Below, one piece after another: positions 14,075-37,192 of a stretch of DNA of 64,000 nucleotides. The position numbers were made by a program, and so were the translations under genes. Under the pieces are notes generated by a model that saw only the letters and a list, made by a program, of their open reading frames with translations, was not told the origin of the DNA and did no database searches. Every line of letters begins with the position of its first letter. Position 1 is the first letter of the stretch. This stretch comes from Paracoccus seriniphilus (GTDB lineage: Bacteria; Pseudomonadota; Alphaproteobacteria; Rhodobacterales; Rhodobacteraceae). The stretch is from positions 1,408,501 to 1,472,500 of the forward strand of contig NZ_CP067129.1 of NCBI RefSeq assembly GCF_028553745.1, written 5' to 3'.

Positions 14075-14407
14075 ATGACAAAGCAGAGATTCATCCCCGC
14101 CTATCCGGCCGAGCTTCGCGAACGCGGTGTTCGGATGTTTCGAGAGAACCGTGCCGATTATTCCAGCGATACGGCCGCCTATAAGGCGATCGCGCCGAAG
14201 CTTGGCTGTTCGCCGGACAGTCTGCGGGTCTGGTGCCAGCAGGCCGAACGCGACACCGGTCAGCGCGCTGGCCTCACGAGCGCCGAGAAAGACCGGATCA
14301 AGGAGCTGGAGCGCGAGGTCCGTGAACTGCGCCAAGCCAACGAGATCCTGAAGAAGGCCAGCGCATATTTCGCAGCGGCGGAGCTCGACCGCCCGTTCCG
14401 CAAATGA
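14075..14407 (+). CDS. IS3-family transposase OrfA (element 2)
   Basis: 110-aa HTH_Tnp_1-type protein ([38 protein letters not shown]) with a C-terminal leucine-zipper stretch ending [23 protein letters not shown] at 14075 has AAAGGA about 9 nt upstream; an ATG three codons earlier lacks that spacing. Its TGA overlaps the orfB ATG (ATGA). Intact but orphaned, since its orfB is cut. Confidence 0.88.
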
Positions 14408-14740
14408 TCGCGTTCATTGATGATCACCGTTGTGTCCATGGTGTCGGGCCGATCTGCCGGATTCTGGAGATCGCACCATCGACGTATTACGCCTTCAAGG
14501 CCGTGGAGCGTGATCCCGATCTTGCCTCGGGCCGGGCCAGGCAGGATCGGCAGGACATGGCTGTGATCAAGCAGGTTTTCGATGGCAGCCGGGGACGATA
14601 TGGCGCGCGCAAGGTCTGGCACCAGCTACGCCGCAGCGGCCATGATATCGCCCGCTGCACGGTGGAGAGGTTGATGCAGGTCATGAGAATACAAGGCGTT
14701 GTGCGGGGCAAGAAGGTGATCACTACCAACCCCGATGCGG
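14404..14740 (+). pseudogene. IS3-family transposase OrfB fragment (element 2)
   Basis: N-terminal HTH_21-type region: FIDDHRCVHGVGPICRIL, APSTYYAFKA, YGARKVWHQLRR, CTVERLMQVMRIQGVVRGKK, then TTNPDAAQP. The catalytic core that should follow is absent; from about 14741 the frame runs through phage sequence to a stop at 14872-14874. Confidence 0.88.
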
Positions 14741-15102: not shown

Positions 15103-16179
15103 ATGTCCGACGCCACGACCCATCTCCTGTTGCCCTACATCCTCGCGGCACAGGCCCAGAAGCACATCACTCACAACGAGGCACTGCGGATCCTCGACGG
15201 GCTCGTCCAGCTTTCGGTCCTCGACCGGGATCTCACGGCGCCGCCCGGAAGCCCAGCCGATGGCGACCGCTACATCGTCGCCTCGGGCGCGACCGGCGAC
15301 TGGGCAGGCTGGGACCTGAACGTGGCGCTTTGGACGGACGGCGCGTGGCTGCGCCTGCCGCCGCGCACCGGATGGCGGGCGTGGGTCGAGGACGAGGGCC
15401 TACTGCTGGTCTACGACGGTGCGGGCTGGGTCGGGACTAACCCCGCGGCGCTGCAGAACATGTCGCTGCTGGGGCTGGGCACAACGGCGGATGAGTCGAA
15501 CCCGTTCTCGGCCAAGCTCAACGCGGCGCTCTGGACGGCCAGGACCGTGGCCGAGGGCGGCACGGGCGACCTGTTCTACACCATGAACAAGGAGGCCGCG
15601 GGCGACGATCTCGGCCTGACGCTGCAGACCGGCTTCGTGACCAAGGCGTTGGCGGGGCTCTTCGGCTCCGACCGCTTCCGGCTTGCCGTCTCCGCCGATG
15701 GCAGCACCTTCTTCGACGGGCTCAGCGTCGACAACGCCACCGGCGTCGTCGACCAGCCCCGGCTGCCCCGCTTCAAGGCCTGGACGAACTACGACAACTA
15801 CGTGGGCGTCGGAACTTGGACGAAGATCGCCATCAACAACACCGACTACAACGATCAGGGTGCCTTCGATGCCGCCAATAACCGGTTTGTAGCGCCTGCG
15901 GACGGCACCTACCTCTTCGGCGCGACACTGCTCTACAAGGTGAACGCCAGCACGTCGGCGCGGATGAGCGGGCGGCTCGTCCTGAACGGCGCGACCGAGA
16001 TCCGCGGCTCGCGGGGCGAGATCAGCGGCGCGCGTGTCTCGGAGGCGACGGTGCTGTGGCTGCAGACGATGGCCTCGCTCACCACCGGCGACACCGTCGA
16101 GTTGCAGGGCAACTTCCGCGCCGCGGATGGCTACTTCGCCGCCGACCACACCTCGTTCTGGGGCGCCAAGATCGGCTGA
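15103..16179 (+). CDS. DUF2793 phage tail protein, copy 1
   Basis: 358 aa. The N-terminal DUF2793 domain starts with the family motif HLLLPYILAAQAQKHITHNE, with ILDGLVQLSVLDRD and PPGSPADGDRYIVA (about 1-130). The middle is a receptor-binding-like region, and the C-terminal domain resembles C1q-type tail-tip folds (AANNRFVAPADGTYLFGA, DTVELQGNFRAADGYFAAD). It probably forms a tail fibre or tip. Full length and uninterrupted, but stranded without other tail genes. Copy 2 at 36116-37192 is nearly identical in layout, and copy 3 is a C-terminal stub at 29768-29971. Confidence 0.9.
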   Translation: MSDATTHLLLPYILAAQAQKHITHNEALRILDGLVQLSVLDRDLTAPPGSPADGDRYIVASGATGDWAGWDLNVALWTDGAWLRLPPRTGWRAWVEDEGLLLVYDGAGWVGTNPAALQNMSLLGLGTTADESNPFSAKLNAALWTARTVAEGGTGDLFYTMNKEAAGDDLGLTLQTGFVTKALAGLFGSDRFRLAVSADGSTFFDGLSVDNATGVVDQPRLPRFKAWTNYDNYVGVGTWTKIAINNTDYNDQGAFDAANNRFVAPADGTYLFGATLLYKVNASTSARMSGRLVLNGATEIRGSRGEISGARVSEATVLWLQTMASLTTGDTVELQGNFRAADGYFAADHTSFWGAKIG

Positions 16180-16191
16180 GGAAAGGCCGAC

Positions 16192-24138: not shown

Positions 24139-25225
24139 GGAGGCTCAAGGGTCGTTGCGACGCTTCCTGCTATCCTAGCTTCATGAGTTCGTCCCTGAAG
24201 GCTTCAGCCGGTGTGCGCCATCCGAGGCATTTTCTGGGTGTGCCGTTCAAGCGGTCGCAAATCGCCTTCATTGAGCGATTTGAGAGCGCGGCCACAGGCG
24301 TATCCCGTGGCAGATAGCGGCGGGTCCGCTTGTTGAGGTTCTCGACGGATCCTTTCTGCCAGGGCGCTTGGGGATCGCAGAACCACGCTTCCGTTCCGAT
24401 CCCAGGCTTGAGCTTGCGCCAGTTCCGGAACTCGATCCCTCTGTCGAAAGTGATGGAGCTCCGCGCCGGCTGGGGCAGGGGTTCCATGACGTCCATCAGC
24501 CGGTTCATCAGGTGTGTGGTGCTCCGGTCCTGGTTTCTGAACAAGACGGCAAACCGCGTCTTTCGCTCTACAAGCGTGGCCACGTTGGCATTGCCCTGAG
24601 CGCGTTCGAAAATCATCAGATCGCCTTCCCATTCACCAAATGTCTCGCGGGACTTCACGTGCTCCGGGCGCTGATGAATGGAGCGCTCCGGCGGGAAAAC
24701 AAGGCCGCGCGGCCTGCGCGCATAGCGCGGCTGCCGTTTCTTGCGCCGGCTCGGCAGGTGGCGCGCCAGTTCTTCGGATTGGCCATCGGGGCCATAGACG
24801 TAAGCGTAAATGGTCTCGTGGCTCACGCGCACCGGTTGGCCTTCAAACCAAAGACGGCCGGCAATCTGCTCTGGTGACCAGCCTTCCTTCAATTGGGTGA
24901 TCACTGCTTTGCGCAGTTCTTTCAATCGCACGAGCTTGCGCCGGCGCATGCGTCTGGCGGCCGCGGCTCGCTGCGCGTTCACACCGTAGTAGCCGTTCAG
25001 ATATGGCAGTTCATTGTCTTCAAAGCGGTTGCGCTTGATTTCCCGGTAGACAGTAGAGCGATGCCTGCCGAGCGAAGCCGCGATCTTGCTCACGGGCGTC
25101 TTTGCGTTCAGCATATCCTCAATTGTGCGCCGTTCTCGCAAATCCAGCTCTATGTGGGCCATCTTCCATTCTCCTTGCTTTCCAGCAAGATAGGGGAACT
25201 GTCGCAACCCAATCTAGAATGTGCC
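24139..25225 (-). mobile_element. IS30-family insertion sequence
   Basis: 1,087 bp, with imperfect terminal inverted repeats whose inner parts share GTTGCGAC. It is flanked by a CCAT direct repeat (24135-24138 and 25226-25229), a target duplication of the short kind typical of IS30. It carries one intact transposase and interrupts an outer-membrane protein gene; the target repeat is still exact, suggesting a recent event. Confidence 0.88.
24170..25162 (-). CDS. IS30-family transposase
   Basis: 330 aa. N-terminal HTH_38-type domain (HIELDLRERRTIEDML, SKIAASLGRHRSTVYREIKRN), then the DDE core with GEWEGDLMI (first Asp), TFDRGIEFRNW (second Asp region) and PWQKGSVENLNKRTRRYLP (catalytic Glu), all as expected for the family. 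ATG at 25162; a 15-codon extension upstream lies in the terminal repeat. Intact. Confidence 0.95.
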   Translation of the reverse strand: MAHIELDLRERRTIEDMLNAKTPVSKIAASLGRHRSTVYREIKRNRFEDNELPYLNGYYGVNAQRAAAARRMRRRKLVRLKELRKAVITQLKEGWSPEQIAGRLWFEGQPVRVSHETIYAYVYGPDGQSEELARHLPSRRKKRQPRYARRPRGLVFPPERSIHQRPEHVKSRETFGEWEGDLMIFERAQGNANVATLVERKTRFAVLFRNQDRSTTHLMNRLMDVMEPLPQPARSSITFDRGIEFRNWRKLKPGIGTEAWFCDPQAPWQKGSVENLNKRTRRYLPRDTPVAALSNRSMKAICDRLNGTPRKCLGWRTPAEAFRDELMKLG

Positions 25226-25763: not shown

Positions 25764-26789
25764 TCAGGACATCCGGTCGAGATAGGCTGTCGGGCTTTGT
25801 CCGGTCCAGCGATTAAAGGCCCGCACGAAAGAGGACGCTTCCGAAAAGCCGAGCAAGTAGGCCGCCTCGTTGACCGACACCTTGCGCGCGGTCAGGTAGT
25901 CCAACGCCATGCGTCGGCGCAAGTCGTCATGGATCTCGGCGAAGGTCTCGCCCTCGGCCTTCAGACGGCGATAGAGCGTCTGGCGGCTCATGCCGAGAGC
26001 ACGCGCAAGCTTGTCCATCGACAGCGACCCCTCGTGCAGATCGGGCAGGATCGCCGCCTCGATCCTGTCGCGAAGCCGGTCGGAACGCCCGAGCGTGTCG
26101 AGCAGGGCATCGGCGTGACGGGTGAAGATGCCGAAGCTGTAGGCATGACCCGGCTCGAAGTCAGACTCGGCGGTCAGCCAAACAGGATCGATCCTGAGAG
26201 CGTTGCGCGCCGCATCGAAGCGAACCGGAATGCGAAACAGGGTCGGATACTCGGCCGCGTGCGGCGGGGGTGGATAGGTAACCTCCATCTCCAGCGCGAA
26301 GGGTACATCCGGAAAGGACCGGCGGAATTCACTGATGAAGCGCGCGAAGGAGGCCTCGAGCCCAATGTAGTCAGGCCCAGCAACAGCGATGTGATCCACG
26401 ATCCAGACCGCACCACCCTTTTGCAGTAGTTCGAAGCGGTCGCGCCCACCGACCGTGTCGACCTCTGCCATCAGGCGCAGATAGCGATTCAGTTGCGCGA
26501 TCGAATGGGCGAGGGACTGCGAGGAATGCACGATCTGCCCGACAACTGAAATCGTCTCCAACCTCGAGTCGAAGGTGTGTCTCAGTAACAGCGCCGTATC
26601 GCCCGTGGCCTCGATTCCCGCCACGATCAACGCCTGGTAGGCCGCCACCGGCACGCGCGCGTCCTGATTCGCGAGGTCTCCCGCCGCCAGTCCCGACGCA
26701 GCCAGCAGTTCCGCACGAGGCGCGCCACGGCTTTCGGCATAGTCAAGAAACGCCGCGGCAAACCCGGCCGCCATCGTCGGTTGGGCCAT
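25764..26789 (-). CDS. AraC-family transcriptional regulator (leftward of a divergent pair)
   Basis: 341 aa. N-terminal Arabinose_bd-type ligand domain (about 15-200), then a C-terminal AraC double helix-turn-helix with LARALGMSRQTLYRRLKAEG and VNEAAYLLGFSEASSFVRAF followed by W-TGQSPTAYL. The ATG at 26789 has only a weak ribosome site; a GTG three codons upstream is possible. Divergent from a second AraC gene 156 nt away; together they resemble OruR/ArgR-type regulators. Targets are not evident. Confidence 0.88.
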   Translation of the reverse strand: MAQPTMAAGFAAAFLDYAESRGAPRAELLAASGLAAGDLANQDARVPVAAYQALIVAGIEATGDTALLLRHTFDSRLETISVVGQIVHSSQSLAHSIAQLNRYLRLMAEVDTVGGRDRFELLQKGGAVWIVDHIAVAGPDYIGLEASFARFISEFRRSFPDVPFALEMEVTYPPPPHAAEYPTLFRIPVRFDAARNALRIDPVWLTAESDFEPGHAYSFGIFTRHADALLDTLGRSDRLRDRIEAAILPDLHEGSLSMDKLARALGMSRQTLYRRLKAEGETFAEIHDDLRRRMALDYLTARKVSVNEAAYLLGFSEASSFVRAFNRWTGQSPTAYLDRMS

Positions 26790-26945
26790 CCCGAACACCC
26801 TGCAAGAACCTCTCCATATTTCCAAACCTATGGAACTTCGGCGGAAATCACAAAGATATCTCGGACAAGCGACGGCTGCTTTTCGCACGCCACCAACGCT
26901 CTTCGGAGTTACTTGCCTCTCTTTCTTCGGTGTAAGCTGTCCGAC

Positions 26946-27950
26946 ATGGGGTATGTCACGTCACTTTTTGCGCGGAAGATGGTTGCTGCGGCGGGTGACG
27001 GCATCGATGCGTCCACGCTCCTGGCGGTGGTCGGGATCGACCCCGACGGTCCCTGGGCCCCCAAAGCGATGATCCCGGCCGCGGCCTATTACGACATGCT
27101 TGAACGCATTGCCCGGCAGATCGACGCCACTGATCTGCCGGTGCGCGTCGGTGCGACCATGCGGCTTGATGAATACGGAGCGCTGGGGCTGGCGTTCAAG
27201 GCGGCGACCACGCTCGGCGCCTCCTATGCGCGCGTGGAACGGTATGCCCGTCTCTGGACCAGCGTGGTGGAGTACGAATTGCGGCCCGATCCGCGCGGCA
27301 CGATTTTTATCCTGCACCGTCCCGGCGAACGGCGTCTTGGAATGCGTCTGTCGAACGAGGCGACGTTGGCGAGTGCCATCTCGATCGCCCGGCAGGTCAG
27401 CCCGGTGCCCGTCGCCCCGCTGGAAGTCCTGATCCGGCATCCCGCGCCCGCATCGATCAAGGCGCACGAGGATTGGTTTGGCTGCCCCGTTCGATTTGGG
27501 TCGGATCTCGACGCGATCCTCTTTTCGCGGGAGACGCTGGCGCAGCCGAACATCCTCGGGGATGTGGGAATCTCCAGCTTCCTCGTCTCGCATCTCGACA
27601 AGGAACTGTCGGAAATAGCCGACGAGGCGCCGCTGGTCACCGATACGAAGGACGCCATCGCACAGGCGCTCAGCGAGGGCGCGCCGAAGATGGCCGACAT
27701 AGCGCGAGGTCTCGGGCTCAGCGCGCGGTCGTTTCACCGGAGGCTCTCCGAACACGGGATGAGCTTCCAGACCCTGACGGAGGAAACCCGGCGCGAATTG
27801 GCGGAGGGGCTCCTGTGCGACGAAGGTCATTCCTTGGCGGAGATCGCCTTTCTGACCGGGTTTGCCGAGCAGAGCTCTTTCACTCGCGCGTTCAAACGTT
27901 GGGTCGGCATGACGCCGGCAAGCTACCGCAAGGGGCGCGGCCGGCTTTGA
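26946..27950 (+). CDS. AraC-family transcriptional regulator (rightward of a divergent pair)
   Basis: 334 aa with the same architecture as its divergent neighbour: Arabinose_bd-type domain (about 20-200) and a C-terminal AraC domain (IARGLGLSARSFHRRLSEHG, LAEIAFLTGFAEQSSFTRAFKRW). Sequence identity to the neighbour is modest, so this is an old paralogy or shared family, not a recent duplication. ATG at 26946 was preferred over a 55-codon in-frame extension that overlaps the intergenic region. Confidence 0.88.
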   Translation: MGYVTSLFARKMVAAAGDGIDASTLLAVVGIDPDGPWAPKAMIPAAAYYDMLERIARQIDATDLPVRVGATMRLDEYGALGLAFKAATTLGASYARVERYARLWTSVVEYELRPDPRGTIFILHRPGERRLGMRLSNEATLASAISIARQVSPVPVAPLEVLIRHPAPASIKAHEDWFGCPVRFGSDLDAILFSRETLAQPNILGDVGISSFLVSHLDKELSEIADEAPLVTDTKDAIAQALSEGAPKMADIARGLGLSARSFHRRLSEHGMSFQTLTEETRRELAEGLLCDEGHSLAEIAFLTGFAEQSSFTRAFKRWVGMTPASYRKGRGRL

Positions 27951-28044: not shown

Positions 28045-29046
28045 CTACAATTGAAACAGACCCAAGGCACTCACCACATCGCGCTTTGTCGCCTCGGTGC
28101 GCTCTCGCGCCCGTTCCGTGCCTTCTTTGATCACGTCAATTATGTATCCGCGGTCCGCGGAGAACTGTGCCCTACGTTCGCGAATTGGGGCAATGAGCTC
28201 CTGAAGGATGGCTTCCAGACGTGCCTTGATCTTGCCATCGCCAATTCCGCCTCTTTGATACTGGGCCTTTAGCTTGGCAAGCCCGTCCTGGTCCTGATCG
28301 AAGGCGTCGAGATAGGTGAAGACGACATTGCCCTCGATGCAGCCCGGATCTTCGACACGCAGGTGATTTGGATCAGTGAACATCGCCCTGACAGCGCTTC
28401 GGATCTCCTCAGGCGACGCGGACAGCGCAATGGCGTTACCACCGGATTTGGACATCTTGGCCTTGCCGTCGATTCCGGGCAATCGGCCCGCGCTGGGGAT
28501 GATTGCCCGAGCCTCGGGCAGCACGGTGCTGCCTGCGGTTGCGTTGATGCGCCGCACGATCTCGTTTGTTTGTTCAATCAGCGGGGCCTGATCCTCGCCG
28601 ACAGGCACGACCGTCGCCTTGAAGGCCGTGATGTCCGCCGCCTGTGCCGCCGGATAACACAGAAATCCGGCGGGAATGTCGCGCCCGAAGCCACGTGCGC
28701 GGATTTCGTCCTTGATCGTCGGGTTCCGTTCGAGCCGCGCGACCGTGACAAAGTTCAGGTAGAGCATCGACAGCTCCGCCAGCGTCGACAGGTGCGATTG
28801 CAGACAGATGGTCGTGCGCGCGGGATCGATGCCCACGGCCAGATAATCCAGCGCGACCTCGATCACGCTACGCCGCACCTTCTCCGGATCATGGGCGTTG
28901 TCGGTTAGGGCCTGAGTATCCGCCAGCAACAGAAATTGTTCATGACTGTCCTGATAGCGCAGCCGGTTTGCAAGCGAGCCTGCATAGTGCCCAATGTGAA
29001 GCGGCCCTGTTGTGCGGTCGCCGGTTAGAATGGTTGGTTTGTTCAT
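28045..29046 (-). CDS. trpS: Tryptophanyl-tRNA synthetase
   Basis: 333-aa class I synthetase: HIGH motif at 17-20 (GPLHIGHYAGS), KMSKS at 197-201 (GKAKMSKSGG), and the AxxQAAD segment of the active site (YPAAQAADITAF). GGGGAAGA precedes the ATG at 29046. The short length and sequence fit the TrpRS form that often occurs as a second, regulated copy. Upstream lie a 15-codon leader with tandem Trp codons and a terminator, indicating control by charged tRNA-Trp. Whether the genome has another trpS cannot be seen. Confidence 0.95.
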   Translation of the reverse strand: MNKPTILTGDRTTGPLHIGHYAGSLANRLRYQDSHEQFLLLADTQALTDNAHDPEKVRRSVIEVALDYLAVGIDPARTTICLQSHLSTLAELSMLYLNFVTVARLERNPTIKDEIRARGFGRDIPAGFLCYPAAQAADITAFKATVVPVGEDQAPLIEQTNEIVRRINATAGSTVLPEARAIIPSAGRLPGIDGKAKMSKSGGNAIALSASPEEIRSAVRAMFTDPNHLRVEDPGCIEGNVVFTYLDAFDQDQDGLAKLKAQYQRGGIGDGKIKARLEAILQELIAPIRERRAQFSADRGYIIDVIKEGTERARERTEATKRDVVSALGLFQL

Positions 29047-29090
29047 TTACGTCTTCCCCAATAACGAGAGGCGGCGCATCGGGAAGCTCG

Positions 29091-29120
29091 GAAAACAAAA
29101 GGCCGCCCATGCGGCGGCCT
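29091..29120 (-). terminator. Transcription attenuator upstream of trpS
   Basis: Read leftward: stem AGGCCGCC / GGCGGCCT with loop GCATG, followed by TTTGTTTT. It lies 31 nt past the leader peptide stop and 45 nt before the trpS ATG, where premature termination would switch trpS off. A GGGTGGCC upstream (near 29140) could pair with the GGCCGCC arm to form an antiterminator with one mismatch. Confidence 0.85.
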
Positions 29121-29150
29121 CGGAATGCGTTTGGTCATCCGGCCACCCTG

Positions 29151-29198
29151 TCAGGAGGCCAGCCACCAAGTCATTGCGATAATGATCGTGTTTTCCAT
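29151..29198 (-). CDS. trpS leader peptide with tandem Trp codons
   Basis: A 15-residue open frame, MENTIIIAMTWWLAS, ending in TGA at 29151-29153. Its two consecutive Trp codons lie four codons before the stop. A GAGGA ribosome site lies about 12 nt upstream. Position, length and Trp doublet are those of a ribosome-mediated attenuator: a ribosome stalled at TGG-TGG when charged tRNA-Trp is scarce would favour the antiterminator and allow trpS transcription. It is too short for ordinary gene calling. Confidence 0.85.
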   Translation of the reverse strand: MENTIIIAMTWWLAS

Positions 29199-29505
29199 GA
29201 AACGCTGCTTATCCTCGGCGAAGTCACCCGTCAATCAAATGATAGAAACGGCTCCTTCCGGCCATGCGTCAAGCCGGCATGGAAACCTCGGTTCGGCCTC
29301 GCCAGGCTTCTCTCACGGCGAGGAGCAGAACTCCGACGCATGCGCTTCGTTGACCTGCGAGGTCACGGACCGGATGACGCGACACACACGCGGGCCGCGG
29401 GCGGCAACTGGCATCGCCGGTCAAAACGCTGGCGATCCCGGTCAATACCGAGGCCGCAACGGTCGCCTATCCCTTGGTCGTCAACTCGAACCAAGGGAGA
29501 GACCC
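29199..29505. other. Intergenic region upstream of the trpS leader and NmrA-like fragment
   Basis: Must contain the leftward trpS promoter; TTGATT on the minus strand (about 29234-29239) could be its -35 element, but no convincing -10 was seen. A ribosome site AGGGAG precedes the NmrA-like ATG at 29506. No gene recognised. Confidence 0.35.
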
Positions 29506-29767
29506 ATGCAAGACCACCCCATCCTCGTCATCGGCGCCACCGGCAAGACCGGGGCCCGCGTTGCCGCCAAGCTGGAAGCGAAGAAACTGCCTGTCCGCCG
29601 TGGCTCGCGCAGGTCCGCCATTCCCTTTGACTGGGAATCGCCGGAGACTTGGGCCCCAGCACTTCGCGGTGTCCGGGCATCCTACGTCACCTACTTTCCC
29701 GACCTCGCTTTCCCCGGTGCAGTCGAAAAGCTCGAGTCCCTCGTCGAGACCGCAAAAGATGCGGGCG
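29506..29767 (+). pseudogene. NmrA-family NAD(P)-binding protein, N-terminal fragment
   Basis: Starts MQDHPILVIGATGKTGARVA with the NmrA glycine motif GATGKTG and continues through ASYVTYFPDLAFPGAVEKLE to ETAKDAG. At that point (about 29767) the sequence switches to the C-terminal coding part of DUF2793, in a different frame. About 85 of an expected 280 residues remain, so it is inactive. A good ribosome site AAGGGAGAG precedes the ATG. Confidence 0.82.
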
Positions 29768-29971
29768 TTGGTGCTGAACGGCACGACCGAGATCCGGGGC
29801 TCGCGGGGCGAGATCAGCGGTGCGCATGTCTCGGAGGCGACGGCGCTTTGGTTGCAGACCATGTTGGCATTGGCGGCTGGCGATACCGTCGAGCTGCAGA
29901 GGTATTTCCGCGCCGCGGACGGGTATTTCGCGGCGGATCAGACGTCGTTCTGGGGGGCGAAGGTGGGGTGA
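29768..29971 (+). pseudogene. DUF2793 phage tail protein, C-terminal stub, copy 3
   Basis: Frame ending at 29971 reads VLNGTTEIRGSRGEISGAHV and DTVELQRYFRAADGYFAADQ, the last ~68 residues of the DUF2793 proteins at 15103-16179 and 36116-37192. It is joined to the NmrA-like fragment at its 5' side and to non-coding sequence at its 3' side. Confidence 0.9.
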
Positions 29972-30228
29972 CGGGAAATTCCACTTTTGGTGAGTACTTG
30001 TGATCGTGTCCAGAAGCCCCGGGGCAGAATTCACTAATCGGCTTGTGCTGGTAGCCTCCTGCCGTGTGGTGCAGGAGTTCGCGGGCGAAGCCATTGGCGA
30101 TTGGCGTCCGCGCCAACTTGAGGGCGAGCTATGTTGGAATTTGGGTGACGCGACCTAGTTAAGCGGCATGGTTTGCGGAGGCGCAGGCAGCACCGTTTTG
30201 GCCGGTCAGCAGTTTCGCGCAGCCGCCC
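29972..30228. other. Gene-free spacer after DUF2793 copy 3
   Basis: About 257 nt without a recognisable gene, RNA or insertion end. It separates the phage stub from the LuxR gene and probably contains that gene's promoter. Confidence 0.4.
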
Positions 30229-30248
30229 TTGACACCGACGGTCCCGTT

Positions 30249-30284
30249 CCTGACCCTGACCCTGACCCTGACCCTGACCCTGAT
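30249..30284. repeat. Hexanucleotide tandem repeat upstream of the LuxR gene
   Basis: Five perfect CCTGAC units followed by one CCTGAT, ending 4 nt before the likely ATG of the LuxR gene. Because the unit is 6 bp, a change of copy number would alter promoter-to-start spacing (or a Thr-Leu run, if translation begins upstream) without a frameshift. Confidence 0.9.
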
Positions 30285-30288
30285 CACG

Positions 30289-31242
30289 ATGACGGAGACT
30301 AAAGGCGCCGTGGAGAACAGCGATTTTCTACTGGAACTTTACCATGACGCCTCAGAATGCTGCCCGGATGAATTTCGCCTGCGTGTGCTTGCCAATCTGC
30401 AACGGCGCATCCCCTTTGACTTTGGCGTCTGGGGCGGCGGTTGGGCGGATGGGCGGCTGGTGACGGACTTGTCCGTTCTCAATCAAAGCGAGGCAATACT
30501 CGGCGATTGGGAGGTCGTTGCCCAGCAGGATGCCTTTTGCGACCTGACGCTTGACCGTCTGGGGGAGACGGCCCGATTTGACGATGTGCCGGGCTATCGC
30601 GACAGCCTGGCCTTCAACGAGCATTGGCAGCGCTTCAATGCTTCGCACATGATGGCGACGATCGTTGGCGAGGAAACGGATGGCTATGTCAGCTTCGTGG
30701 GGCTGTGCGCCGAGCAAAGGCCAAAGCCGTTTTCAAACGAAGAACGCTCCTTCAAACAGGCCATCATGCCGCATCTGTCGCAAGCCCTGCGGATGAATCG
30801 CGAGCTATGGGCGGGCCGCGCGATCATGGAGCAGGATGAGGTTATCCTGGTGGACCGCGCCGGTTGGGTCTTGTCGGCCCAAGGTGCGTTTCGTGACCTT
30901 GCCGAAGGCGAATGGGACGGGCGGCTTGCGCAATTGCCCGGGCGGGTCATGGACGCGCTCAGGGCGGGGCGGCGGTGGCGTGGCAAAACGCTGGAAATGC
31001 GGATGAGGCCCTTCGGCAGCAACTATCTGGTCCATATGACGAGCCAGCATCTGGCCCTGTCTGCCCTGTCAGCGCGCGAACGCGAAGTGGCCGAATTGTT
31101 CGCCTCGGGCCAGACCTACAAGCAGGTCGCCCGCGCCTTGGAGAAATCGCCATCCACGGTGCGAAATCAGGTCGCGCGGATCTACGAGAAACTGGGAATT
31201 TCCAACAAGGCCGAACTTGCATCGGTTCTCGCCGCAAGGTGA
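30289..31242 (+). CDS. LuxR-family transcriptional regulator
   Basis: 317 aa from the ATG at 30289. The N-terminal two thirds are a PAS/GAF-like sensory region without the acyl-homoserine-lactone signature residues. The C-terminal LuxR HTH is clear: LSALSAREREVAELFASG, KQVARALEKSPSTVRNQVARIY, KLGISNKAEL. The start is uncertain: ATG 30289 directly follows the hexanucleotide repeat and lacks a ribosome site, whereas a GTG at 30310 has AAAGG just upstream. The two genes downstream, exported proteins, may be its targets, since a palindrome lies between. Confidence 0.88.
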   Translation: MTETKGAVENSDFLLELYHDASECCPDEFRLRVLANLQRRIPFDFGVWGGGWADGRLVTDLSVLNQSEAILGDWEVVAQQDAFCDLTLDRLGETARFDDVPGYRDSLAFNEHWQRFNASHMMATIVGEETDGYVSFVGLCAEQRPKPFSNEERSFKQAIMPHLSQALRMNRELWAGRAIMEQDEVILVDRAGWVLSAQGAFRDLAEGEWDGRLAQLPGRVMDALRAGRRWRGKTLEMRMRPFGSNYLVHMTSQHLALSALSAREREVAELFASGQTYKQVARALEKSPSTVRNQVARIYEKLGISNKAELASVLAAR

Positions 31243-31266
31243 GGCAATAGAGCATCTGCCCTATTT

Positions 31267-36115: not shown

Positions 36116-37192
36116 ATGCCCGATAGCACGACCCATCTCCTGCTGCCCTACATCCTGGCGGCGCAGGCCCAGAAGCATGTCACCCACAACGAGGCGCTGC
36201 GGATCCTCGACGGGCTGGTGCAACTCTCCGTCCTCGACCGGAACCTGACAGCACCACCGGCGAGCCCCGCCGATGGCGACCGATACATCGTCGGCTCTGG
36301 CGCTACGGGCGACTGGGCGGGCTGGGATCTGAACCTCGCGCTCTGGACCGATGGCGCATGGCTGCGCCTGCCGCCACGGACCGGCTGGCGGGCATGGGTC
36401 GAGGACGAGGGATTACTGCTAGCCTATGACGGCGCAGGCTGGGTTGGTACCGCGCCCGCGGTGCTACAGAACCTTGCGCTGCTGGGGCTCGGCACGACGG
36501 CAGACGCCTCGAACCCGTTCTCGGCCAGGCTGAACGCCGCGCTCTGGACGGCGAAGACCGTGGCCGAGGGTGGCACCGGCGACTTGTTCTACGCGATGAA
36601 CAAGGAGGCTTCGGGAGACGATCTCGGCCTGACACTGCAGACCGGCTTCGTAACCAAGGCGCTGTTGGGGCTCTTCGGCTCTGACCGCTTCCGCCTTGCC
36701 GTCTCGGACGACGGCAGCACCTTCTTCGACGCCCTCACCGTCGACAACGCCTGTGGTATCGTCGACCAGCCCCGGCTGCCGCGGTTCAAGGCCTGGACCA
36801 ACTACGACAACTATGTCGGCGTCGGGACCTGGACGAAGATCGGCATCAACAACACCGACTACAACGACCAGGGGGCGTTCGATGCCGCGAACAACTGCTT
36901 CGTCGCGCCCTCGGACGGCACTTACCTCTTCGGCGCGACGCTGCTCTACAAGGTCAATTCCAGCACCTCGGCACGCATGAGTGGGCGGTTGGTGCTGAAC
37001 GGAACGACCGAGATTCGCGGTTCGTTCGGCGAAATCAGCGGGGCGCATGTCTCGGAAGAGACGGCCCTCTGGCTGCAGACCATGGTGGAGCTGGCGGCGG
37101 GCGATACCGTCGAGCTGCAGGGGTATTTCCGGGTTTCGGACGGCTACTTCGCGGCGGATCAGACGTCGTTCTGGGGTTGCAAGATTGGTTGA
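36116..37192 (+). CDS. DUF2793 phage tail protein, copy 2
   Basis: 358 aa, exactly the length of copy 1 at 15103-16179 and differing only by scattered substitutions. Same order: HLLLPYILAAQAQKHVTHNE start, PADGDRYIVGSG, and a C1q-like C-terminus (AANNCFVAPSDGTYLFGA, GYFRVSDGYFAADQ). The distribution of differences, with the reading frame kept open, indicates both copies evolved under coding constraint before being stranded here. Confidence 0.9.
   Translation: MPDSTTHLLLPYILAAQAQKHVTHNEALRILDGLVQLSVLDRNLTAPPASPADGDRYIVGSGATGDWAGWDLNLALWTDGAWLRLPPRTGWRAWVEDEGLLLAYDGAGWVGTAPAVLQNLALLGLGTTADASNPFSARLNAALWTAKTVAEGGTGDLFYAMNKEASGDDLGLTLQTGFVTKALLGLFGSDRFRLAVSDDGSTFFDALTVDNACGIVDQPRLPRFKAWTNYDNYVGVGTWTKIGINNTDYNDQGAFDAANNCFVAPSDGTYLFGATLLYKVNSSTSARMSGRLVLNGTTEIRGSFGEISGAHVSEETALWLQTMVELAAGDTVELQGYFRVSDGYFAADQTSFWGCKIG

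Follow-up and report, generated by a model that had tools for sequence, protein, structure and literature searches.

A predicted ribosome-mediated attenuator with a Trp-Trp leader peptide upstream of an auxiliary tryptophanyl-tRNA synthetase gene of Paracoccus seriniphilus, and a covarying pairing between its terminator apex and the trpS ribosome-binding region

A stretch of 64,000 nucleotides of Paracoccus seriniphilus DNA (the window) contained an auxiliary tryptophanyl-tRNA synthetase gene, trpS-II, preceded by a short leader peptide with two adjacent Trp codons and by an intrinsic terminator. Judged from sequence comparison and folding models, the region is very probably a ribosome-mediated attenuator, which would sense charged tRNA-Trp and control the auxiliary TrpRS. 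Attenuation of trpS of this kind had been proposed in an earlier note on the same DNA, and the proposal gained support from the conservation of the leader, the pairing of the helices and the ribosome-masked folding described below. In addition, the apex of the terminator hairpin was complementary to a segment near the trpS ribosome-binding site, and the two covaried among relatives. A broader reading, in which a two-tier attenuator has spread with the auxiliary TrpRS across Pseudomonadota and acts as a purely translational stall switch in relatives lacking a U tract, is put forward tentatively, with confidence a little short of even.

All elements of the attenuator and of trpS-II were located on the minus strand of the window. 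The leader ORF (MENTIIIAMTWWLAS followed by a stop; 29151–29198) was composed of 15 codons, with its ATG at 29198 and its TGA ending at 29151. The tandem Trp codons UGG UGG (TGGTGG in the DNA; 29163–29168) were invariant in a 35-row alignment. Segment 1 (CUGGCC, 29157–29162) was the partner of segment 2 (GGGUGGCCGG, 29139–29148), and segment 2 could pair with either segment 1 or segment 3 (GAGGCCGCC, 29113–29121). Segment 3 formed the 5′ arm of the terminator and segment 4 (GGCGGCCUU, 29099–29107) the 3′ arm. The terminator stem, GAGGCCGCC-GCATG-GGCGGCCTT (29121–29099), had 9 bp and ran into a U-rich tract (UUUUGUUUU; DNA TTTTGTTTT; 29092–29100) that served as its tail; hairpin and tail together spanned 29121–29092, and an intrinsic terminator was called there in the window. 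The order given in the earlier note, a 15-residue leader with two adjacent Trp codons followed by a terminator and then by trpS, was borne out by the sequence. The spacing between the leader stop and the stem also had the layout described, with a gap of 29 nt in place of the 30 nt claimed. The element GGGTGGCC was positioned at 29148–29141 (minus strand), within segment 2. The pairing of segment 2 with the terminator arm stood as well (GGTGGCC : GGCCGCC, 7 bp), and the supposed mismatch proved to be one G-U wobble.

The 171-nt region folded with a z score of -2.55, and 3 of 200 shuffles were equally stable. In the minimum-energy fold, the start of the leader ORF, GGAAAACA (29198–29190), was paired with UGUUUUCC (29098–29091) from the U-rich terminator tail. 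When a 281-base segment was searched against Rfam, the Trp_leader family RF00513 matched below threshold, with 32.4 bits against a gathering cut-off of 41 (E 4.7e-5). The leader region resembles RF00513 in its working, yet lies outside the membership of that family. At gathering scores the T-box covariance model matched nothing in the window, and it was absent from the matches of the leader region up to E 5. No family was returned at E 5 or below when a single type-B leader, L046, was searched against Rfam.

A strict leader was defined as TGGTGG with a stop 3–9 codons on, an ATG or GTG 6–17 codons upstream, and the stop 60–200 nt before trpS. Such a leader preceded 100 of 157 distinct TrpRS-II loci, whereas 100 dinucleotide-shuffled sets averaged 0.13 such leaders per set and never had more than 1. 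The Trp doublet, whose absence from related leaders the earlier note would have counted against attenuation, was therefore found to be conserved in the leaders of trpS homologues. The 57 loci with no strict leader included 15 from Acinetobacter, 7 from Cupriavidus and, in the class sample, 17 from alphaproteobacteria with genomes of 0.6–2.1 Mb. The number of TrpRS copies was counted in 42 picked genomes with a TrpRS-II match using an E cut-off of 1e-20, and the split hits of the long Burkholderiales TrpRS were tallied by hand as one. Of 36 genomes with at least two TrpRS hits, 31 had the WW leader in front of TrpRS-II, as did one (G1069) of the six with a single hit (Fisher p 0.0016 for these hand-picked and hand-tallied genomes, a value that overstates their independence because the genomes are related). 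Among the remaining five multi-copy genomes, three (G630, G1148, and G1386) had a leader that shared this layout but contained a single Trp codon, and two had no leader. In the sequences compared, the leader tracks auxiliary TrpRS copies. Two genomes carried two TrpRS-II copies each: one copy had a WW leader and the other had none in G1410 (L156 and L177), and both copies had one in G500 (L096 and L105).

The 106 leader loci (of 177) were thinned to 56 diverse representatives at 80% identity. Alignment A1 contained 35 of the 38 type-A leaders; L007, L025, and L045 were omitted, mostly for longer spacers. Hairpins were located by script, and a few assignments were doubtful (L054, L151, L163, and L172). 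In the 35 leaders, pairing reached 96.8% in the 3:4 (terminator) helix, 94.7% in the 2:3 helix, and 92.6% in the 1:2 helix, and compensatory cells numbered 5, 5, and 6, respectively. The slid controls were at most 72, 70, and 62% paired, respectively, with a lowest value of 8% across the three helices. The compensatory cells represented few events. All five of the 2:3 helix and five of the six of the 1:2 helix came from one clade (L006, L096, L097, L098, and L105), in which concerted C-G to U-A and G-C to A-U changes kept both helices, and those of the 3:4 helix were contributed by L023 and by L024/L031/L038. Over the 35 leaders, the count of pairs with both sides changed showed no excess over shuffles in the 2:3 helix (1 versus 1.1) and no clear excess in the 1:2 helix (2 versus 1.1). 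Compensatory changes, which the earlier note had suggested looking for in the leader stems, were thus present, though as few events in a close alignment. When the duplexes of the 56 diverse leaders were compared with non-cognate combinations, the cognate 1×2 duplex had a z score of -7.6 and was better than the median in 46 of 56 leaders, and the cognate 2×3 duplex had a z score of -3.2 and was better in 36 of 56.

Ribosome-masked folding was performed on transcripts ending just past segment 3, and a 2:3 helix was scored when at least 4 expected pairs formed. Masking of the Trp codons by the ribosome gave a 2:3 helix in 49 of 56 leaders, and placing the ribosome at the stop codon gave one in 2 of 56. 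Ribosome-free transcripts formed the 2:3 helix in 10 of 56 leaders and the 1:2 helix in 44 of 56. The expected pairs in the window were 7.8 for 1:2 with no ribosome, 7.0 for 2:3 with a stalled ribosome, and 1.0 for 2:3 with the ribosome at the stop. The mutually exclusive 1:2, 2:3, and 3:4 hairpins that the fold check had called for were found, and the modelled folding logic is that of the classical attenuator arrangement. With these helices conserved and covarying, with the leader present at 100 of 157 loci against 0.13 expected, and with its association with auxiliary copies, it is scarcely credible that the ORF with the WW doublet arose by chance or has no function and simply precedes the constitutive terminator of another transcript.

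A putative leader promoter was composed of a -35 box, TTGACG (29229–29234), identified by a promoter-pair script, and a -10 box, TAAGCA (29206–29211), separated by a 17-nt spacer. The -10 box matched the consensus weakly, and the leader ATG was located 7 nt downstream of it. A simple sigma-70 scan of the window returned no promoter upstream of the leader, because this -10 box is atypical. The script found a -35/-10 pair in 29 of the 56 diverse leaders and none in 27, and 19 of the 29 promoter-like pairs placed the -10 box 6–7 nt ahead of the leader ATG. Since the window ATG is only 7 nt past the putative -10 box, the transcript probably starts no more than a few bases from the leader AUG, and the leader would then be leaderless. 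A transcription start downstream of 29151 had been named in the earlier note as an observation that would speak against attenuation; the putative promoter was predicted upstream of the leader.

In the mechanism proposed here, transcription would begin at the leader AUG or close to it. With ample Trp-tRNA, the ribosome would reach the leader stop and cover segment 2, the 3:4 terminator would form, and trpS-II would be off. When Trp-tRNA is scarce, either through Trp shortage or through inhibition or failure of the housekeeping TrpRS, the ribosome would stall on UGG-UGG. Segment 2 would then capture segment 3, the terminator would be blocked, and trpS-II would be transcribed. The helices and the folded states were computed in this study, and from them we infer termination, stalling, and induction in the cell.

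The trpS-II gene (28045–29046, ATG at 29046) encoded an auxiliary tryptophanyl-tRNA synthetase of 333 aa. Its product scored over the TIGR00233 cut-off, and the best solved relatives were the D. radiodurans TrpRS II structures 2a4m (E 9e-110) and 1yi8 (E about 1e-109), with the next-best solved match at E 5.4e-61. By these matches, the window synthetase belongs to the TrpRS II type. It is regarded as auxiliary because a second TrpRS was present in the same genome, which was 31% identical to the window copy and whose gene had no Trp-Trp leader in its upstream region.

In the TrpRS of B. stearothermophilus, replacement of H43 with Asn confers indolmycin resistance (PMC4899734). The equivalent residue, whose position was judged by eye, was Gln in the window TrpRS-II and His in the housekeeping enzyme. 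Gln was found at this position in 106 of 106 leader-bearing loci (duplicates included) and also in all 66 readable ones of the 70 loci lacking a leader. This candidate resistance residue was ruled out as a marker of leader-bearing copies: it is family-wide, present with or without a leader, and so is not diagnostic. Indolmycin-insensitive auxiliary TrpRS enzymes are summarised in PMC9437257 and PMC6804068, and a backup role for trpS-II when the main TrpRS is inhibited is plausible. As with indolmycin-insensitive copies, the physiological trigger would most likely be the loss of housekeeping TrpRS activity. The attenuator might instead operate as described with a trigger that is not a TrpRS inhibitor, TrpRS-II having a role such as Trp nitration linked to nitric-oxide synthase (NOS). 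The closest solved relative, 2a4m, fits this alternative, and Deinococcus TrpRS II has been linked to nitric-oxide synthase (PMC9437257), but no neighbour recurred in more than 7 of 58 loci in a general count of neighbouring genes, and we regard such a role as unlikely.

Besides the four segments of the attenuator, a fifth segment was recognised downstream of the terminator. Segment 5 (CCCGAUGCG, 29075–29083) was complementary, with one bulge, to the terminator apex (CGCAUGGG, 29113–29106). It was overlapped by an anti-Shine–Dalgarno (anti-SD) sequence, CUUCCC (29081–29086), which paired in the minimum-energy fold with the SD-like sequence of trpS, GGGGAAG (29053–29059). When relatives were placed side by side, the segment just upstream of the trpS SD could pair with the apex of the 3:4 hairpin, and the two sides changed together. 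The SD of trpS was located in a hairpin whose 5′ strand adjoined or overlapped segment 5.

The pairing was evaluated independently of any alignment: the duplex energy of an apex with the downstream region of its own locus was set against its energies with the downstream regions of other loci. The cognate combination of apex and segment 5 was better by 5.1 kcal/mol (z -13.9), with 49 of 56 leaders better than the median. Wider regions gave a z score of -11.3 (52 of 56), and the loop plus two bases alone gave -5.7 (41 of 56). The control with the region upstream of the leader had a z score of 0.8; that with the reversed downstream region had one of -4.3, and part of the signal is therefore compositional. 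The cognate preference of segment 5 for the SD was weaker (z -4.0, with 32 of 56 better than the median). The window itself had a weak apex:5 pairing, at -24.3 against a non-cognate median of -23.4.

The U-tract criterion was passed by 22 of the 56 diverse leaders and failed by 34, and the hairpin end carried at most three consecutive U in 32 of the failing leaders. The apex:5 z score was -7.4 (reversed -1.2) in the 22 leaders with a U tract, -10.1 (reversed -4.1) in the 34 leaders lacking one, and -9.8 (reversed -3.7) in the 32 leaders with no run of more than three U. For the leaders lacking a U tract, alignment A2 contained 26 of 30 type-B leaders; L032, L054, L059, and L068 were omitted because of long gaps or unusual spacing. 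The columns of the 11-pair 3:5 helix were chosen after inspection of that alignment. The helix was 92% paired in the 26 leaders, and its compensatory cells numbered 22, compared with 8.4 in shuffles. Slid controls for the type-B 3:5 helix were 31–63% paired, and the helix had 4 pairs with both sides changed, near the shuffled value of 3.1.

Two other arrangements of segment 5 were considered. For type-B leaders, a pairing between segment 2 (GGAGC) and CUCC in segment 5 was rejected by eye, because L054, L135, and L153, with altered segments 1/2, kept the CUCC or changed it independently. A pseudoknot between the loop and segment 5 in the off state was disfavoured, because 4-nt loops (L140 and L141) paired with segment 5 through both arms. 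Separately, L161, L162, L163, L166, and L167 from the Burkholderiales sample had other hairpin cores and kept the complementarity between loop and segment 5, as seen by eye.

Covariation among the leaders supports the apex:5 pairing; release of the SD is its putative effect, to which folding points weakly. In equilibrium folds, from which three leaders with no start codon by script were left out, SD accessibility was the same under the stall and stop masks (36 of 38 type-A and 29 of 30 type-B leaders). Among the 56 representatives, it did not change with segment 3 absent and the loop free (0.215 to 0.217), and it increased from 0.214 to 0.234 with segment 4 blocked (p 0.005), a condition in which the cognate apex was no better than the non-cognate ones (0.217, p 0.65). 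When the 3:5 helix was forced, the mean SD accessibility rose from 0.22 to 0.27 (p 0.012). Shifts larger than 0.1 opened the SD in 17 of 56 leaders and closed it in 5 of 56, and in the window the value changed from 0.11 to 0.38.

Segment 5 is unable to affect termination because it lies downstream of the terminator, and it would therefore act on the full-length RNA. Formation of the 2:3 helix would open the hairpin and leave the apex free while segment 5 is being transcribed. Because segment 5 is made before the SD, the apex:5 pairing would form first and hold the anti-SD away. The freed apex may thus pair with segment 5 and compete with the SD-hiding hairpin as a second, translational tier of control, a possibility to which we give slightly less than even weight. 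In relatives with no U tract, the translational tier would be the whole switch.

Control might also consist of transcription attenuation only, with the apex:5 pairing a relic or an element of mRNA stability and the SD hairpin constitutive. The equilibrium folds, in which no stall-dependent opening of the SD occurred, agree with this simpler scheme, as do the slight effect of blocking segment 4 and the weakness of the apex:5 pairing in the window itself. Against it, the 34 leaders that fail the U-tract criterion keep the leader and a covarying apex:5 pairing, for which reason intrinsic termination alone is insufficient for them, and the type-B 3:5 helix had its 22 compensatory cells. On this evidence, control by transcription attenuation only is judged rather unlikely. 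A terminated leader RNA might, alternatively, act in trans, its terminator loop pairing with segment 5 of the full-length trpS-II mRNA and repressing translation. The cognate complementarity of loop and segment 5 would suit such an RNA, and S. meliloti rnTrpL, an attenuator-derived leaderless sRNA, destabilises the trpDC mRNA in trans (PMC7298713). However, leaders with no U tract should yield no intrinsically terminated RNA, yet they covary likewise, and the pairing reaches both hairpin arms (median 11 pairs), which must open; action in trans is accordingly considered very unlikely.

TrpRS-II was distributed patchily. It was detected in 7 of 198 genomes of the family (E <= 1e-90) and in 21 of 390 genomes of the order (E <= 1e-60), among which the genome of the window was the sole member of its genus. 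Further samples contained it in 25 of 289 genomes (class), 18 of 299 (phylum), and 15 of 347 and 24 of 200 (two other orders). Leader-bearing loci came from Cupriavidus, Paraburkholderia, and one Steroidobacter MAG as well as from Rhodobacterales and Rhizobiales.

When 40 further genomes of the genus were compared with the 2-kb flank upstream of the leader (29300–31260), 23 shared short pieces of it, 17 had no match, and none contained it at full length; this fits the accessory region in which the earlier note had placed the gene. Neighbours were counted over 58 named loci from open frames of at least 120 aa and the top 25 clusters. Besides trpS and frames overlapping it, the commonest clusters occurred at 7 of 58 loci and none was higher; one was spread across several genera, and the others were rhizobial or from Cupriavidus. 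The leader and trpS-II look like a stand-alone module that has spread horizontally.

Several further features were observed around the module. A piece of about 200 bp at 29763–29955 had three further copies in the genome at 80–95% identity, two of them inside the window (about 15968–16184 and 36983–37176), and matches of 73–90% in other genomes of the genus mark it as a dispersed repeat. An ALIL pseudoknot (RF01497) was found on the plus strand at 14362–14478 of the window with 102.2 bits; ALIL elements are frameshift signals of IS3-type transposase genes. Downstream of trpS (24170–25207 and 25764–27950) were an IS30 family transposase and two AraC-type regulators, whose best NCBIfam match was QhpR, below cut-off. 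Seven rhizobial loci (L035, L040, L044, L046, L050, L055, and L060; six from Rhizobium) shared one common trpS-II neighbourhood, which included a protein with an alanyl-tRNA synthetase-like start, as judged by eye.

If the two-tier model holds, one ribosome stall would control both the transcription and the translation of trpS-II. Leader and auxiliary TrpRS form a compact module found in several proteobacterial lineages, with no widely common neighbours in the loci compared, and its regulation would report failed tRNA-Trp charging, which would suit a backup enzyme. The covarying pairing between the apex and the ribosome-binding region suggests a route from a transcription attenuator to a translational one.

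Among the known systems compared with the window attenuator, an auxiliary trpS gene of Streptomyces was reportedly the subject of experimental work by Vecchione and Sello in 2010. Another system, pheST, encodes a housekeeping synthetase. According to PMC1262725, attenuators have been predicted at Streptomyces trpS and leuS, including S. avermitilis trpS2, and gamma-proteobacterial pheST is cited there. Attenuation of a synthetase gene, as proposed in the earlier note, is of a kind already known from these genes. The trpS gene of S. lividans has the leader trpL2 (MMTRTCTQLWRAA); trpL2 forms two hairpins, lacks a U-rich tract, and is leaderless (PMC8079986). As proposed here, a Trp leader peptide and hairpins control trpS in Streptomyces, whereas the phylum and the leader are different. 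The tandem Trp codons and the intrinsic terminator are features of the window, unlike Streptomyces trpS, and the covarying pairing of the apex with the trpS ribosome-binding region is unmentioned for Streptomyces trpS in the accessible portions of PMC1262725 and PMC8079986.

The proteobacterial Trp operon leaders share Trp codons and alternative terminator and antiterminator structures with the window (RF00513; PMC7298713, PMC10117765), and S. meliloti rnTrpL is leaderless, as the window leader probably is. Those leaders control biosynthesis through trpE(G), whereas the window leader would control a synthetase and scores below the RF00513 cut-off. Gamma-proteobacterial pheST, as presented in PMC1262725, likewise has leader-peptide attenuation of a synthetase operon; its attenuator reads Phe, whereas that of the window would read Trp. 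A putative small leader CDS on the Caulobacter crescentus trpS mRNA was obtained from ribosome profiling (PMC4117421), and this alphaproteobacterial trpS resembles that of the window in its short leader CDS. The LEU element of actinobacterial leuA combines a leader peptide with long-range pairing to the Shine–Dalgarno box, as proposed here, but in that element the Leu codons themselves pair with the SD, a candidate pseudoknot is formed, and the gene is biosynthetic (PMC1262725). A literature search by title and the start of the abstract, covering few subscription journals, returned no Trp leader at an auxiliary trpS of Pseudomonadota and no pairing between an apex and a ribosome-binding site, of which an earlier description may exist elsewhere. 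Attenuation of an auxiliary trpS is already known from Streptomyces, and the new element here is the covarying pairing between the terminator apex and the ribosome-binding region.
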